Positions 1 to 34,194 of a stretch of 34,194 nucleotides of DNA are shown here, in pieces; position 1 is the first letter of the stretch, and every line of letters starts with the position of its first letter. The DNA comes from a virus, in IMG/VR virus record IMGVR_UViG_3300048026_001054, positions 1 to 34,194 of that record; one strand, given 5' to 3'. A program made the position numbers and the translations under genes. A model generated the notes under the pieces. That model saw only the letters and a list, made by a program, of their open reading frames with translations, made no database searches and was not told the origin of the DNA.

Positions 1-759
1 GACATCGAACCTCATGCAGATGAGACACCCGATGAGCACGATCATGATTGGCAGAAGCGATACAAGGACGCGCAAGCGGAATTGACAAGGCTGCAGCAAA
101 GCCGAGATGAATTTGAAGGTGAATTAACTCACCAACTGACGGAAGTGAAGCGCCGCGAGTACGAGCTGGAGGATGTCCTGGTCGAATCACGCGGTAACGC
201 CGAGCTATTGTTGAACGCACTAAAGGGGCAGGCAGATAAATTCAGAAGTTTGGATTTTTCGCAGATCCCGGCCGACCAACTGCCAGCAGTACAGCAGCAG
301 GCGGCGGCCGCGTTCCAGCATGAGCAGCAGGTGATGGCTGCGCTGACTCACATCAAAGAGCAGCACAAAAACGCGCATGAGATGCAGGTGAAGAGAGAGG
401 CCGACCTGGCACTGACACGATTGCGTAGGACCATCCCTGGGTGGAGCAATGACAAGTACCGGGAGCTGGCTGAGTACGCCCAGCACCGGGGCCTTGATCC
501 TACATTGTTCAATGCAGTCACAAACCCAGCAGTGATTGAGATGTTTCACGATTCAATGATGTATCGGCAAGCGGGCAGCAAAGCGAAAACCGTTTCTAAA
601 CACAAGATGTCGAAACCGGCCAACGCTAATAGCCCCACTCGCACCCGAGACGCGAGAGGTAAGTTTGTCAGTGCAAAACAAGCTTTTGATCAGGCACCTA
701 ATGAGAAAGGTGCGTTTGCAAAGATGAAGGAAGCGCAATTAGCAATGGAGCGGAGGTAG
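1..759 (+). CDS. Capsid scaffold protein, 5'-truncated
   Basis: Frame 1 is open from the first base, so the N-terminus lies outside the window; 252 residues are visible. The first visible residues are very acidic and histidine-rich, followed by DWQKRYKDAQAELTRLQQ, a charged segment that begins a long predicted coiled coil (about residues 15-65). The whole protein is helical and rich in Q, E, A and K, with a basic C-terminal tail (PTRTRDARGKFVSAKQAF). Scaffold proteins of T7-like and related podoviruses have this make-up and sit just before the major capsid gene, as here. The role is inferred: it would direct procapsid assembly and leave before or during packaging. A TTG at 82 could be read as a start, but the coding frame clearly continues upstream of it. 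Confidence 0.7.
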   Translation, partial: DIEPHADETPDEHDHDWQKRYKDAQAELTRLQQSRDEFEGELTHQLTEVKRREYELEDVLVESRGNAELLLNALKGQADKFRSLDFSQIPADQLPAVQQQAAAAFQHEQQVMAALTHIKEQHKNAHEMQVKREADLALTRLRRTIPGWSNDKYRELAEYAQHRGLDPTLFNAVTNPAVIEMFHDSMMYRQAGSKAKTVSKHKMSKPANANSPTRTRDARGKFVSAKQAFDQAPNEKGAFAKMKEAQLAMERR

Positions 760-790: not shown

Positions 791-1720
791 ATGGCTCAGG
801 TAGACAATACATATCATCAGACGCGACAAGCCGAAGATGTACAGGACGTAATTTACAATATTAGCCCCATCGACACCCCCGTTGTCTCGATGAGTAAGAC
901 CATCCGCGCAACTGGAAAGCTGCATGAGTGGTCAGAGGACGACTTGAACGCGCCAGGAGAGAATGCTCTGGTTGAAGGCGCAGCCGCTGGCTCTGACATT
1001 TCTAAGCCCATTGTGGAGCGAAAGAATGTCTGCCAGATCATGGGCAAAGTGGCCGAAGTAACGGGCACAATTGAGGTGGTCGATAAATATGGCCGCGACT
1101 CTGAGATGGCGTACCAGCTGGAGCTGCGTTACGGCGAATTGGCTAATGACCAGGAATGGGCAGTAGTCGGAGCACGGCAGACCCAGGTAGATGGTCAGGC
1201 AACGGACGGTGATGCACCTATGTTCGTCCCCAACCCGCCAGCACGTAAAATGACCAGCTTTGTACCGCAGCTCGACTCATCAGTCGTGGTTGACGGTTCT
1301 AGTGCTGCTGACGCAGCGGCCGTTGAGACTCTCTTGCTTGACGCGCACTTGGCAACGTACATGGAAGGCGGCAACCCGTCTTACCTGGTTACTGACCCCA
1401 AGACTGCAGGCATTGTTTCAAGCTTTGCCCTGGCAGCTGGCCGTCACCGTGATCTCCGCAACGAGCGCAAGATCGTCAACGTCATTGACCTGTACGTATC
1501 TACGTACGGCGAGCTGGACGTTGTCCTGGATCGGAACATGGAAGCGGGCACAATGCTGTTGGTTGATTTCAACTACACAGCGACCCCTGTGCTGCGCCCC
1601 ACGTTCGACTCTCCGATTGCCCGCATGGGTGACTCAGAGAAGCGTCAGATCCTGTGGGAGGGCACGTTTGCGGTCCTCAATGCGCGTGCGCACGCTGCGG
1701 TAACGGGCGTTAGCCTCTGA
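791..1720 (+). CDS. Major capsid protein, SU10/DUF5309 type
   Basis: 309 residues, ATG start with a strong ribosome site (GGAGG, 5-9 bases upstream). The N-terminal pattern EDVQDVIYNISPIDTPVVS, then a HEW...D.L motif near residue 47, is characteristic of the SU10 major head protein family (DUF5309). These proteins have an HK97-like fold. The C-terminus contains W-E-G-T-F followed by LNARAH, the usual closing strand and helix. Length is normal for the family. It follows the scaffold gene and precedes the adaptor, the standard head-module order. It forms the icosahedral shell. The stop codon shares one base with the next start (TGATG), so the two are translationally coupled. Confidence 0.88.
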   Translation: MAQVDNTYHQTRQAEDVQDVIYNISPIDTPVVSMSKTIRATGKLHEWSEDDLNAPGENALVEGAAAGSDISKPIVERKNVCQIMGKVAEVTGTIEVVDKYGRDSEMAYQLELRYGELANDQEWAVVGARQTQVDGQATDGDAPMFVPNPPARKMTSFVPQLDSSVVVDGSSAADAAAVETLLLDAHLATYMEGGNPSYLVTDPKTAGIVSSFALAAGRHRDLRNERKIVNVIDLYVSTYGELDVVLDRNMEAGTMLLVDFNYTATPVLRPTFDSPIARMGDSEKRQILWEGTFAVLNARAHAAVTGVSL

Positions 1721-23400: not shown

Positions 23401-23598
23401 TCTGTGCCTGCCCAAGCACTGGCCTGGGGTCTGTTCGGCCCTCAGACGGGCGTGGAGACAAAGATAGCGGCACCTAAGCTTGAGATTCTCGCTGACATGA
23501 TTGCAGAGCGAGCGAGGGACAGGGGTATATCGATTGAGCAGGCCAGGGATGAAATCCTAATGGGCCAGGATTACGTGGGCGCGTTAACGTCCAAGTAG
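20491..23598 (+). CDS. Polyvalent ejection protein with HExxH metallopeptidase domain
   Basis: 1035 residues. Residues about 20-75 (AIFLGTGAKNAAHDMLGMA, then GVDRKEIWQKTGWGRGTDG) match the start of large polyvalent protein domain 23 (LPD23). Residues 251-255 are HELQH, a zinc-peptidase HExxH motif, followed by SIQDLEGWAQGS. A later GEVEARNAQ at 381-389 could give the third metal ligand (E382 or E384). Residues about 525-545 are a small-residue hydrophobic segment. From about 787 (GWYVMDPLYQAYKDMG) to the end is a second domain with patterns seen in polyvalent proteins (DUF7178-like, tentative). Polyvalent proteins are multi-domain effectors injected with phage DNA. The stop overlaps the convergent next gene by 15 bases. 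Confidence 0.75.
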   Translation: MRGRLATGAGLGALAATESEDAEAIFLGTGAKNAAHDMLGMAKTMEHRGVDRKEIWQKTGWGRGTDGHWRFEMDDRELFAPVPEVIKQGQKPGGKWEGREAWYKDDDGVVTAKRPLGYDFNGKRIGWNLSPRNLQNLAGGDQLIENYPALAAIDIPNTRIPEPAIMKTGNGGSMYGIGEGYLYADDPDNTYLAPVTPSWSQEQHQYYGSGAYGNPPRMKINQLHEPVPSSPAGADEMLEGALGTYRNVAVHELQHSIQDLEGWAQGSAFEEGKQSASKSAYWEDRLLWDGGESTREVDPLIDEYDKLVQRWTDLDREIAGDFEDAPKELLNRYQKVDEELEFLNLRYPYVRKASVDRNLGEAESRRGDYISDMQAYRNTAGEVEARNAQKRRDMTPQERRENPPWKTADTPEYEQTTIGLAPREDNRYVTEWQPQRGRLVKENILSSNGFPEVRDLMRSGMAYESDAWNLVQPQLNLDKQTLEDNLDNYFQFAGGTPEQRTEMMMEAERINTSNNGRYSPYTGKATMAAAGAGGGVLATMAANLDSILPRGTANAVSDLGAVDSGIAAADTAVRAGQGLVNDIITGGTMVTNAVADEDYEPYEVDIDPGTEQGNTLAQGLMEDMGRLFEYKGIMGNMPSANEMIGGGIDLYNEHVSPYMNDRVEEGLGGAALLAASTPFIPGGRSTIRGAERKYKPGIYQEPGALLERATEEVAEESPNLPAVFDVTRQDLYDIGSTRQGNQDVQLLGAPANPKGTAHAGKVTKPANTQRLVNALENARGSELEKGMVGWYVMDPLYQAYKDMGLSDEEAVRRFNDFQAVTGIHSANSDVVTELNRGTGALYLNEQGRLDDYFKFGGKMGQPGAPADMDRIRGHMGHKTAHGVPTGRYFESGALQMKSPKVPAYIQAAGVPETGFQTSFPVGDAHYSRAIGLSDVRPELAGGPGASWSMPEAMQLAPWWRDDVAGQVGLESVPAQALAWGLFGPQTGVETKIAAPKLEILADMIAERARDRGISIEQARDEILMGQDYVGALTSK

Positions 23599-23817: not shown

Positions 23818-23830
23818 TGTATCACCTAAA

Positions 23831-23851
23831 TTTGTGGTCAATTTGTGGTCA
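23831..23851. repeat. Left pair of integrase arm-type repeats
   Basis: Two exact copies of TTTGTGGTCA at 23831-23840 and 23842-23851, start-to-start 11 bases. An identical pair lies on the far side of the tRNA-like core at 24025-24046. Pairs of short direct repeats flanking a core about 80-100 bases away are the usual layout of arm-type integrase sites in attP. Confidence 0.65.
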
Positions 23852-23867
23852 AAGTGTGTCCAGGTAA

Positions 23868-23917
23868 GGGGGTGTAAGTCCAGAGAAATGGCTTAAACAC
23901 TGGACTCAGACACCCCC
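23868..23917. repeat. Long inverted repeat next to the att core
   Basis: GGGGGTGT (23868-23875) pairs with ACACCCCC (23910-23917), and AGTCCAG (23877-23883) pairs with CTGGACT (23900-23906). That gives 15 pairs, with one base opposite three between the two stems and a 16-base loop. There is no T-run on either side, so it is not a standard terminator. It sits between the left arm repeats and the tRNA-like core, where excisionase or a host bending factor could act. Confidence 0.6.
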
Positions 23918-23931
23918 ATATACCCCCAGAT

Positions 23932-23991
23932 GGGGACTTAAAATCCCCAGGAGGAAACTCCGTGCCGGTTCAAGTCCGGCCCCGGGCACCA
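23932..23991 (+). other. attP core: 3' part of tRNA-Leu(UAA)
   Basis: The segment folds as the 3' portion of a leucine tRNA. It has an anticodon stem GGGGA/TCCCC with loop CTTAAAA (anticodon TAA at 23939-23941), a class II variable arm GGAG-GAAA-CTCC (23950-23961) and a T stem GCCGG/CCGGC enclosing TTCAAGT (23964-23980). It ends with the acceptor 3' strand CCCGGGC, discriminator A and CCA (23981-23991). The D arm and 5' acceptor strand are absent upstream, so it is not a functional tRNA gene. Tyrosine integrases commonly use tRNA 3' ends, and the integrase lies 30 bases away. Recombination here would restore the host tRNA-Leu gene. Confidence 0.85.
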
Positions 23992-24020
23992 CTTTCAGCG
24001 ATAGTAGTGACTAACTTTTT

Positions 24021-25040
24021 TCAATTTGTGGTCAGATTTGTGGTCATTTTTTCAAGCTGCGCTGCAAGCTTGTCAGTCGCTGCCTGCTTTTCTTCACTGC
24101 GCAAATGAGCGTACTTATTGGTGACCACAATTGAGGAGTGGTTCATCAAGTCCCGTATCAATGCAAAGGGGACTGTAGGATCAGCTGCTAACCAGGACGC
24201 GAACGTATGACGCAGGTCGCGGTACTGAACATGCAGCAGACCGGCCGCCTTCCTGGTATTGCGCCAGGCATATTCCAGGGCGTCATCATTAACCTCCCAG
24301 ACCCTGTCTGTGCCATCCATTTTGACCACATCAGGTTTGTGCATGAGCGCCTCTAGCTGATCCCACAGAAAGTCAGGCAGCGGCACAGAGTGCGGCTTTT
24401 TGCCTTTCATATCGTTTGCTGTGAATCTCAGCTCGGGGCGATGCAGGTTGCGCCTTTCCATGTTGATCACGTTATTCCTGCGGAGCCCGGTGTATGCCGA
24501 GATAAGCAGGATCGTGCGGTATGGCTCCTCAAGACCCTGGGCAAGCGCCTGCACTTCCTCATGGCTCAGATATATTTCTCGCTCAGTACCTGACTCATCA
24601 AGCTTTCTGATTTTCTTCACTGGGTGTTCCAGCCAATTCCATTCCTGGAATGCCAGGTTGTTTATTCGGATGCAGATTGCCAAAAGGCGGTTGATGGTGC
24701 AGGGCGAATAGCCCTCCTCATACATTGCATCACGCATGTCATGCGCAGCTGCAGGTATGAGGTGAAGGGGGAGGTCCAGCATCTGAGGCGCGTGGAGTTC
24801 AAGCTGCTGTGCTTTCTTCCACATCGATGCAGGTGCTGACTTTTGATACCGCTCTAATGCCTCCCTAAGTGTGCGCTCAAGGTAACGACTACCGGCTATG
24901 ATCTTTCGGTATTCCTCGTTTGCGTATTTCTGGGCTTCCTTTTTATTGGTGGTGTTGCATGAGAACCTGTACCGCTCTGTGTCATGCCGTATCTGGACCC
25001 ACCAGGTTCCCTTCTTTCCTCGTTGATAGAAGTGGTGCAT
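24021..25040 (-). CDS. int: Tyrosine integrase
   Basis: 339 residues; the ATG at 25040 has GGAGG five bases upstream. Residues 1-50 are an AP2-like arm-binding start (FYQRGKKGTWWVQIRHDTER). Residues about 55-150 are the SAM-like core-binding domain, and 155-330 the catalytic domain. Catalytic residues visible are R187 (AYTGLRRNN), a beta-hairpin lysine near 212, R277 (RDLRHTFASW), H301 (MNHSS) and nucleophile Y310 (NKYAHL). The usual HxxR box reads R274-D-L-R277, so the first histidine is replaced by arginine, an accepted variant. The gene ends in the right arm repeats of attP and overlaps the excisionase-like gene by 145 bases. It catalyses integration at tRNA-Leu and, with excisionase, excision. 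Confidence 0.92.
   Translation of the reverse strand: MHHFYQRGKKGTWWVQIRHDTERYRFSCNTTNKKEAQKYANEEYRKIIAGSRYLERTLREALERYQKSAPASMWKKAQQLELHAPQMLDLPLHLIPAAAHDMRDAMYEEGYSPCTINRLLAICIRINNLAFQEWNWLEHPVKKIRKLDESGTEREIYLSHEEVQALAQGLEEPYRTILLISAYTGLRRNNVINMERRNLHRPELRFTANDMKGKKPHSVPLPDFLWDQLEALMHKPDVVKMDGTDRVWEVNDDALEYAWRNTRKAAGLLHVQYRDLRHTFASWLAADPTVPFALIRDLMNHSSIVVTNKYAHLRSEEKQAATDKLAAQLEKMTTNLTTN
24025..24046. repeat. Right pair of integrase arm-type repeats
   Basis: Two exact copies of TTTGTGGTCA at 24025-24034 and 24037-24046, start-to-start 12 bases, matching the left pair. They lie inside the last codons of the integrase gene and encode its repetitive C-terminal TTNLTTN tail on the minus strand. 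Confidence 0.65.
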
Positions 25041-25252
25041 TTTTCCTCCAGCAGCCTTTCAAGGCTCTCTCTCGTCACTCTGTCGGATTTGCCGTCTTTC
25101 CCTAAACGGACGGTCCTTAATCTACCGTCCTGGATCATGCGCTTCAACGTCTTGTCGGAAATATCCAGCAGGGAACAAACCCGAGTGGGTTTGAACACCT
25201 GCAGGTTTCCCAGTTCATCAAGCCAATTGGCGTCGATGTCTTGGATGATCAT
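24896..25252 (-). CDS. Excisionase-like HTH protein
   Basis: 118 residues, ATG with GGAG five bases upstream and an ATGA overlap with the gene before it. Residues about 18-70 form a winged helix-turn-helix of the MerR/excisionase type (VFKPTRVCSLLDISDKTLKR, then MIQDGRLRTVRLGKDGKSDR, then VTRESLERLLEE). The last 48 residues are basic and polar and are read in a different frame from the first 48 codons of integrase. Both genes have good ribosome sites, so the overlap looks real. Position immediately before int supports a recombination directionality factor, which would bind between the arm repeats and the core; a transcription factor is the alternative. Confidence 0.68.
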   Translation of the reverse strand: MIIQDIDANWLDELGNLQVFKPTRVCSLLDISDKTLKRMIQDGRLRTVRLGKDGKSDRVTRESLERLLEEKCTTSINEERREPGGSRYGMTQSGTGSHATPPIKRKPRNTQTRNTERS

Positions 25253-29402: not shown

Positions 29403-30045
29403 AGCGACCAACTGGGCGTCAAAGGTGCGCGGCATTAGCCCGATGCAGAAGCTGGTTCTAATGCTTATGGCTGACTGCCACAACGGTCACACCCGGGAGT
29501 GTTTCCCCTCCATCGATACGTTGGCAGAAGACGCATGCGCATGTCGCAGAACAGTAATACGGGCCATTCATGGTCTTGAGGCTGCGGGGCTCGTTTCAGT
29601 CAAAAAGCGGGGTGGGAAATCTAACCGATACATCCTGCATACCCGTGTCACAGAGTCACCCGTGTCAGAGAGTCACGGGTGTCAGAGAGTCACTAAACCC
29701 GTGTCAGAGAGTCACCCCACCCGTGTCACTGTGACACCCGAACAGGAAATAACAGGAAAGAACAGGAATAAGGGCGTTAAAAAAATCTCTGAAAAAAAAC
29801 TGCTTTCCATTGGTGATGAAATTCGATGCTGGGATCTCTGGGTTGAATACCGGACTGAGATTAGAAAACCGTTAACGGAGAAGGGGTGGGAATTGCTCGC
29901 CAATAAGCTACGGAAATATAGCGCAGCGGAGCAGGCGGCAGCGATTGAGAAATCCATCACCAATGGATGGCAGGGCTTGTTCCCTGAGAAAAGCGACAAG
30001 CCTGCTGATGACCTGCCAATGAGCGCGAGGTATCGGAATGGGTAA
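29392..30045 (+). CDS. Replication initiator, lambda O-like (HTH)
   Basis: 217 residues from ATG at 29392. Residues 1-80 form a helix-turn-helix domain of the HTH_36 type used by phage initiators (WASKVRGISPMQKLVLMLMA, then CFPSIDTLAEDACACRRTVI and AIHGLEAAGLVSVKKRGGKS). A repetitive linker follows, encoded by the iterons, and then a basic lysine stretch. Residues about 140-200 form a C-terminal domain (CWDLWVEYRTEIRKPLTEKG, later AIEKSITNGWQGLFPEK) of the kind that recruits a helicase. An origin inside the initiator gene, with primase before and helicase after, matches lambda O/P-type organisation. It overlaps the helicase gene by eight bases. Confidence 0.78.
   Translation: MSHEATNWASKVRGISPMQKLVLMLMADCHNGHTRECFPSIDTLAEDACACRRTVIRAIHGLEAAGLVSVKKRGGKSNRYILHTRVTESPVSESHGCQRVTKPVSESHPTRVTVTPEQEITGKNRNKGVKKISEKKLLSIGDEIRCWDLWVEYRTEIRKPLTEKGWELLANKLRKYSAAEQAAAIEKSITNGWQGLFPEKSDKPADDLPMSARYRNG
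29645..29790. other. Predicted replication origin: iterons, 10-bp repeats, A-rich tract
   Basis: Four iterons of GTGTCAGAGAGTCAC start at 29645 (one variant with CA for GA), 29662, 29679 and 29701. A fifth unit, GTGTCACTGTGACAC at 29723, is a perfect palindrome. Start spacings are 17, 17, 22 and 22 bases. Three tandem 10-base repeats AACAGGAA-NN follow at 29741, 29751 and 29761, then an A/T-rich stretch to about 29800. This is the lambda-like layout of initiator sites followed by an unwinding element, inside the initiator gene. Confidence 0.75.
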
Positions 30046-33014: not shown

Positions 33015-33323
33015 ATGGATCACGGCGTAAGCAGAGCGCAGACCCAGAAACGCATCCGACAGGACGCGCTGCGGGAGTACCTCGCAGAGAGGGGGTCTGT
33101 TCAGCATCTGTTTGACCTGATTGAGAAAATTGAAGGTTTAGAGCCCGACCACCCCAATTTCGATAAGGACCTGGCCAAGTACGACAAGGCCATATCCCAA
33201 AGACAGAAGCTGCTGGGCAAGTACATGCCCGATCTGAAAGCCAGCGAAATCAAATTAGACGCCCAGATCCAGGCCACCGAGGTGAACCTCATGGGCGTGG
33301 ACATGGATGATGCTGATGAGTGA
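33015..33323 (+). CDS. terS: Terminase small subunit
   Basis: 102 residues. The ATG at 33015 has GAGG five bases upstream; an in-frame start at 32967 would cover the putative terminator and is not preferred. Entirely helical and charged: RAQTQKRIRQDALREYLAER, then VQHLFDLIEKIEGLEPDHPN, then KDLAKYDKAISQRQKLLGKY, with an acidic end. Length and position directly before the large subunit fit the DNA-recognition subunit, which forms a ring that binds the packaging site. It overlaps the large subunit by eight bases. Confidence 0.68.
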   Translation: MDHGVSRAQTQKRIRQDALREYLAERGSVQHLFDLIEKIEGLEPDHPNFDKDLAKYDKAISQRQKLLGKYMPDLKASEIKLDAQIQATEVNLMGVDMDDADE

Positions 33324-34194
33324 CCTGGCGCGAGCCCATAGCATCCAGGCGGTTCACAAGCTTGGGTACAGTCCCCAGGGCCCGGTGCTCAAGAGCTTCC
33401 ATGAGAGCAAGCACTTTATGCGCTGCATTGTGGGCCCACTGGGATCAGGCAAGACCCAGGCGTCCATTGTAGAGATCATGCGCCGCATCATGACGCAGCC
33501 TGTGTCCAAGGACGGTGTGCGCAAGTCACGGTGGCTGGCAGTACGTAACACGCTGCCCGACCTTGAGAGTACGACGATCAAGGATTTTAAAGAGATTGTC
33601 ACTGAGGGCATGGGCCTGGGCACCTGGAAGCACTCAAGCCCGGTGACCTGCAGCATTGAGACATACGACACCCAGGGCATCCCGGTAAGAGCAGAGATAC
33701 TGTTCCGCTCGTTTGATGTCCTGACGGATGAAAAGAAAGCCAGGGGCATGCAGCTGACAGGTGTGTGGCTAAATGAGCTGAAGGAGCTGCACAAGCTCAA
33801 TGTGGACATGGTGATGGCGCGTGTCGGCCGTTACCCCAGCAAGCTGGAATGTCCAAAGAGCTGGTACGGCTGCATCGCTGATAGCAACGCACCAGATGCT
33901 GATCACTGGCTGGGCAAGATGATGCTGGAGGATAAGCCAGAAAACTGGTGGATCGGCCGGCAGCCAGGCGCAGTGACCAAGGTGGACGGCCGGTGGGTAG
34001 TGAATCAGCTGGCAGAGAACATCCGCAATCTGACTGATATGTACTACGAAAACCTACGCCAGGGTAAGGCAGAGAATTGGATCAGGGCAAACCTGGGCAA
34101 TGAGCTGGTGTATGTAACGGACGGCCGGCCAGTGCATCCCGCATTTACTGAATCGGTGCATGTGAAGCATTGCGGGCCTCACCCAGGGCAAACG
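33316..34194 (+). CDS. terL: Terminase large subunit, 3'-truncated
   Basis: 293 residues visible, open at the window end. Walker A is GPLGSGKT (residues 40-47, K46), following FMRCIV. An adenine-motif-like RSFD strand (131-134) is followed by Walker B MQLTGVWLNEL, with N153-E154 as the acid pair; N for D is common in this group. The nuclease domain would lie mostly beyond the window. The protein is the packaging ATPase and endonuclease that docks on the portal. The missing C-terminus and the absent portal gene are the reasons to think the genome continues into the scaffold gene at base 1. Confidence 0.88.
   Translation, partial: MSDLARAHSIQAVHKLGYSPQGPVLKSFHESKHFMRCIVGPLGSGKTQASIVEIMRRIMTQPVSKDGVRKSRWLAVRNTLPDLESTTIKDFKEIVTEGMGLGTWKHSSPVTCSIETYDTQGIPVRAEILFRSFDVLTDEKKARGMQLTGVWLNELKELHKLNVDMVMARVGRYPSKLECPKSWYGCIADSNAPDADHWLGKMMLEDKPENWWIGRQPGAVTKVDGRWVVNQLAENIRNLTDMYYENLRQGKAENWIRANLGNELVYVTDGRPVHPAFTESVHVKHCGPHPGQT

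Follow-up and report, generated by a model that had tools for sequence, protein, structure and literature searches.

The question that this locus raises is why the 3' half of a bacterial tRNA-Leu(UAA) gene should lie beside an integrase gene in viral DNA. The window (the whole stretch analysed, 34,194 nt, IMG/VR record IMGVR_UViG_3300048026_001054) carries such a half, and we consider it very probable that this element is the attP core of a temperate tailed phage that recombines at the anticodon loop of its host's tRNA-Leu(UAA) gene and is seen here unintegrated. The tRNA half, the arm repeats, the gene layout and the free and integrated states of relatives were read from sequence; from there on, the position of strand exchange, the activity of the integrase and the host are what we infer.

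The sequence-only reading of the window had described a tRNA-Leu(UAA) 3' half with its arms and CCA intact and its 5' half missing, and the structure (Table 1) bears this out. A degenerate tRNA-Leu(UAA) pattern has one match in the window and none in 100 shuffles, and the core is 95% identical over 59 nt to a gammaproteobacterial tRNA-Leu gene (E 5.7e-21), so that the resemblance to tRNA-Leu is not due to chance. The 5' half is absent across the whole window, where the longest match to it is 10 nt. Neither ARAGORN nor Rfam at its gathering threshold calls any tRNA gene in the window, which for the core is explained by the element being half a tRNA gene; when the 5' half from a related host is joined at 23937 to the 3' half in the window, ARAGORN does call tRNA-Leu(taa). 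A tRNA-Sec identity, raised by a permissive Rfam search, was rejected as a weak match only.

Table 1. Features of the attP region and of the genes that place it within the phage genome (positions in the window).
Feature	Position	Strand	Remarks
Probable scaffold protein	1..759	+	Cut by the record's left end; its position before the capsid gene equals that of the L004 scaffold gene
Major capsid protein (SU10-like)	791..1720	+	
P-arm: tandem pair of arm-type sites TTTGTGGTCA	23827..23851	+	11 nt apart
Strong hairpin between P-arm sites and core	23864..23920		z about -4; arms GGGGGTGT/ACACCCCC
attP core region: tRNA-Leu(UAA) 3' half, anticodon stem to CCA	23932..23991	+	Read from sequence
Anticodon stem GGGGA	23932-23936		
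Anticodon loop CTTAAAA	23937-23943		Anticodon TAA
Anticodon stem TCCCC	23944-23948		
Likely 7-bp crossover (overlap) region	23937..23943	+	Anticodon loop, between GGGGA and TCCCC; placed from the G116 repeat boundary and related attP boundaries
Likely exchanged identity segment	23937..23991	+	55 nt, anticodon loop base 1 (C32) to CCA; equals the G116 direct repeat
Class II variable arm A-GGAG-GAAA-CTCC-GT	23949-23963		15 nt, stem 4 bp
T arm GCCGG-TTCAAGT-CCGGC	23964-23980		
Acceptor 3' strand CCCGGGC	23981-23987		
A + CCA	23988-23991		
P'-arm element CTTTCAGCGATAGTAGTGACTA	23992..24013	+	Partly common to related attP sites L190 and L194
P'-arm: tandem pair of arm-type sites TTTGTGGTCA	24021..24046	+	12 nt apart, within the int 3' end
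Tyrosine integrase (int), 339 aa	24021..25040	-	PF00589 and PHROG integrase matches; 3' end facing the core
Small HTH protein, likely excisionase (Xis)	24896..25252	-	Pfam HTH_17 2e-7; PHROG excisionase 8e-6
Terminase large subunit (terL)	33307..34194	+	Cut by the record's right end

The surroundings of the tRNA half are those of an attachment site, as had been proposed: the 3' end of the integrase gene faces the core, and repeats of the arm type occur in pairs on both sides of it. The motif TTTGTGGTCA is present in exactly four copies in the 34-kb window, all on the plus strand (23831, 23842, 24025 and 24037), which places one tandem pair on either side of the core, the pattern expected of arm-type sites. 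Two features of anticodon-loop-type tRNA attP sites are present: the core corresponds to the 3' end of a tRNA gene, from the anticodon stem-loop onward, and paired arm-type sites flank it. The hairpin between the P-arm sites and the core could possibly serve as a terminator between converging transcripts; a CCCATATACC string adjoins it and recurs near the L186 attP.

We propose that the integrase would bind both pairs of arm sites and that the attP anticodon loop, CTTAAAA, would recombine with the same loop in the host tRNA-Leu(UAA) gene. After integration, the host 5' half and the phage 3' half would form a complete tRNA-Leu gene beside int, and the host's own 3' half would end up at the opposite end of the prophage. 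Of the 60 bases, probably only the 55 from 23937 onward pass between phage and host. The first five (23932-23936) are the phage's own anticodon-stem strand; they are not conserved in related attP sites and are not part of the 55-nt repeat in G116, a more distant relative that is integrated.

This relative, a gammaproteobacterial prophage, follows a complete tRNA Gly-Cys-Leu(UAA) operon, with a convergent integrase directly after it. An exact second copy of the last 55 nt of its tRNA-Leu, which start with the first anticodon-loop base and run to the CCA, stands 39,371 bp away. The interval encodes phage connector, protease, capsid and tail proteins, and arm repeats of the GCGGTGACG type, the same kind as those of the window, occur at both prophage ends. 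Because its integrase is only 31% identical to the window's, G116 tests the mechanism and not the window's own phage. A second complete junction is found in L222, where a complete tRNA-Leu stands after tRNA-Cys and beside the integrase, while its sister integrase L210 has the half site (attP) only; L209 has a complete tRNA-Leu in the other orientation. The prediction that integration rebuilds tRNA-Leu is thus backed by two complete junctions, and the prophage anticipated by the sequence-only reading, seated in tRNA-Leu(UAA) with the core as a direct repeat at both ends, is found in G116 with its 55-nt repeats, at 31% integrase identity.

The choice of target could also be examined independently of the core sequence, since relatives were collected by integrase protein similarity alone, in alignment-based searches of IMG/VR. 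The single-protein search of IMG/VR for integrase relatives gave no match; the relatives obtained are 36-40% identical to the window's integrase over about 307 residues, and those with downstream DNA present have tRNA-Leu(UAA) halves adjoining int. In a tree of 38 integrases (built quickly, without bootstraps, and with a long branch for the window), a clade of ten members with SH-aLRT 98 includes the window, and 10 of 10, that is, nine besides the window, carry a tRNA-Leu(UAA) half beside int. Integrases with Met, Phe, Ala, Arg and Lys targets all lie elsewhere in the tree. The earlier assignment of the site to tRNA-Leu(UAA) agrees with all ten clade members, which supports, as far as this comparison of sequences goes, tRNA-Leu(UAA) as the target of the clade. 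The first integrase relatives, from a single gammaproteobacterial order, occupy Met, Ala, Phe, Pro and Leu(UAG) genes, which initially pointed to a variable target; this reading was dropped because those of them included in the tree fall outside the window's clade.

Whether the DNA is free or integrated follows largely from the layout. The core lies between the gene for the LPD23 protein, whose end is at 23598, and the integrase gene (24021-25040, minus strand), so that it has phage genes to the left and to the right; the earlier description had virion genes on one side and the integrase on the other. The record, which is incomplete and shows no end repeats, ends in terL and the probable scaffold gene. 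In a relative, L004, terL, one unidentified gene, the portal, the scaffold and the capsid gene are contiguous in one run; the window is accordingly a single phage genome whose record opens among the head genes, with about 5.6 kb absent. For an internal attP to have both arms, the DNA has to be unintegrated, replicating or packaged, unless the site lies between two tandem prophages. With phage genes on both sides of the core and ends that are joined in L004, the window is most likely unintegrated phage DNA, as the sequence-only reading had it. The middle junction of a tandem double lysogen would mimic an internal attP and give the same sequence picture as a free phage, and the incomplete record without end repeats would allow for it; but no host DNA or tRNA 5' half is present in the window, the genes at the two record ends are ordered as they would be in a single circular or permuted genome, and tandem lysogens are uncommon, so that we regard this origin as very improbable and unintegrated DNA as by far the simplest account. 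Still less credible, and close to negligible, is that this is a phage tRNA gene in decay or a resemblance that arose by chance. Many phages do have tRNA genes, some of them degraded, but here the gene is cut at the anticodon stem-loop as in the nine other clade sites, always beside int and with arm repeats.

A more substantial doubt, though we judge it unlikely, is that the attP is real but the integrase impaired, the phage now being lytic and its tRNA half a relic. The catalytic residues R187, K212, R277, H301 and Y310 are present, but the HisII position holds Arg274 (codon CGC, window 24219-24221, minus strand), against His in 103 of 103 readable relatives, a count from a sample biased against other residues in that two of the relative-collecting searches used seed patterns allowing only H or R at this position. 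In the same direction, the int and att queries gave no match to G001, which is closely related in its head genes. Yet the reading frame is unbroken and every other catalytic residue is in place, the likely xis overlaps the start of int, all four arm sites are kept, two of them within the coding end of int, and an Arg at HisII may be tolerated. We return to the attP of a temperate phage, with an integrase that is presumed active from its sequence. By ancestry the phage is temperate, even though the cassette is missing from a head-gene relative, and the lysogeny site of these undescribed environmental phages with SU10-like capsids is very probably the anticodon loop of tRNA-Leu(UAA).

Some of the head-gene relatives merit mention for themselves. 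Three entries (L002, L016 and L017) are one 34,781-bp contig, with a capsid protein 91% identical to the window's and a different early region; this contig gave no match to the window int or att region, nor was an integrase found among the ten of its proteins scanned. The head-gene relatives L002-L015, most of them short fragments, likewise gave no match to the window int or att. The early region of the window carries two tandem 22-nt repeats, GTGTCAGAGAGTCAC..., at 29679-29722.

The search for the bacterial target gave a gene and not a host. The exact core (as a 59-60-mer) has no copy in IMG/VR or in 84,980 species genomes; a relaxed core pattern matched at least 117 loci, nearly all of them gammaproteobacterial tRNA-Leu(UAA) genes. 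The closest bacterial genes among the matches listed show 3 mismatches over the 59 bases. One of these is at position 43, the pairing partner of 27, so that G27 in place of A27 is probable in the true host. Samples of more than 1,000 genomes (Gammaproteobacteria, the G015 phylum and the G019 phylum) held no match better than 3 mismatches. Assigning a host by tRNA match was abandoned; a Bacillota bin matches as well as the gammaproteobacterial genes. Thus, the suggestion that the core identifies the exact integration site stands for the type of gene, tRNA-Leu(UAA), and not for a named host, the exact core being in no genome searched; likewise, the proposed search with the 60-base core returned a bacterial tRNA-Leu gene at 56/59 identity but no exact copy. 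The attP core nevertheless offers a sequence handle toward finding the host.

The arrangement is a well-known strategy, found here in an undescribed phage. In the Cluster J mycobacteriophages (Omega, BAKA), in which integration was shown by plasmid assay, a tyrosine integrase likewise has its attP 3' of int, with a tRNA-Leu core that starts in the anticodon loop (PMC3706429). Pairs of 10-bp arm-type sites flank their 44-bp core, and the window also has arm-site pairs; it differs in that the Cluster J hosts are actinobacterial, the tRNA-Leu gene is another one and the core is shorter (PMC3706429). The anticodon-centred subsite (class A) of the Islander collection, with 2083 islands, is similar in its anticodon-loop crossover and in the 3' tDNA fragment in the island that restores the target, but Islander describes integrated islands whereas the window has a free attP (PMC4383910). 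The tRNA-dependent lysogeny of mycobacteriophages also combines a tyrosine integrase with an attB in a host tRNA gene; there, however, a core of about 10 bp leaves the tRNA unrestored (PMC10865867), and such lysogeny also involves a replacement tRNA encoded by the phage. The window core, by contrast, spans the whole 3' half (55-60 nt), and no tRNA gene was found in the window (with about 5.6 kb of the genome missing).

Un-annotated tRNA-Leu 3' halves also lie directly 3' of int in four isolates: Acidovorax phage AP1 (OM049504; L135:2501-2557), Pseudanabaena phage Pan4 (ON968455; L136:2501-2558), Pectobacterium phage ZF40 (JQ177065; L137:379-432) and Aeromonas phage A051 (OP484843; L138:2501-2550). 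These predicted attP cores are absent from the public records. AP1 differs from the window in its anticodon, CAA, and the four integrases are only distantly similar to the window's or undetected by BLASTP.

Several phages carry the 5' half of tRNA-Leu(UAA) rather than the 3' half: L187 (4009-4050), L196 (4096-4134) and L279 (3981-4022), and also L201 (4010-4050). The first three belong to the window's clade and have a complete 5' half with arm repeats on both sides; the 3' half is carried by the window and six other clade members, and the sister integrases L187 and L188 have opposite halves. We lean toward the view that the loop target and crossover are fixed across the clade while the half supplied (the 3' half or its mirror image, the 5' half) has flipped repeatedly. 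If so, phages with a 5' half would need to provide a promoter for the rebuilt tRNA, and the clade would be a natural case for asking why phages take one tRNA half over the other. In a limited look at the literature, we found no description of such alternation inside one integrase clade. Islands with a 5' half are themselves rare but known, since Islander counts 159 with 5' fragments against 3760 with 3' fragments (PMC4383910).
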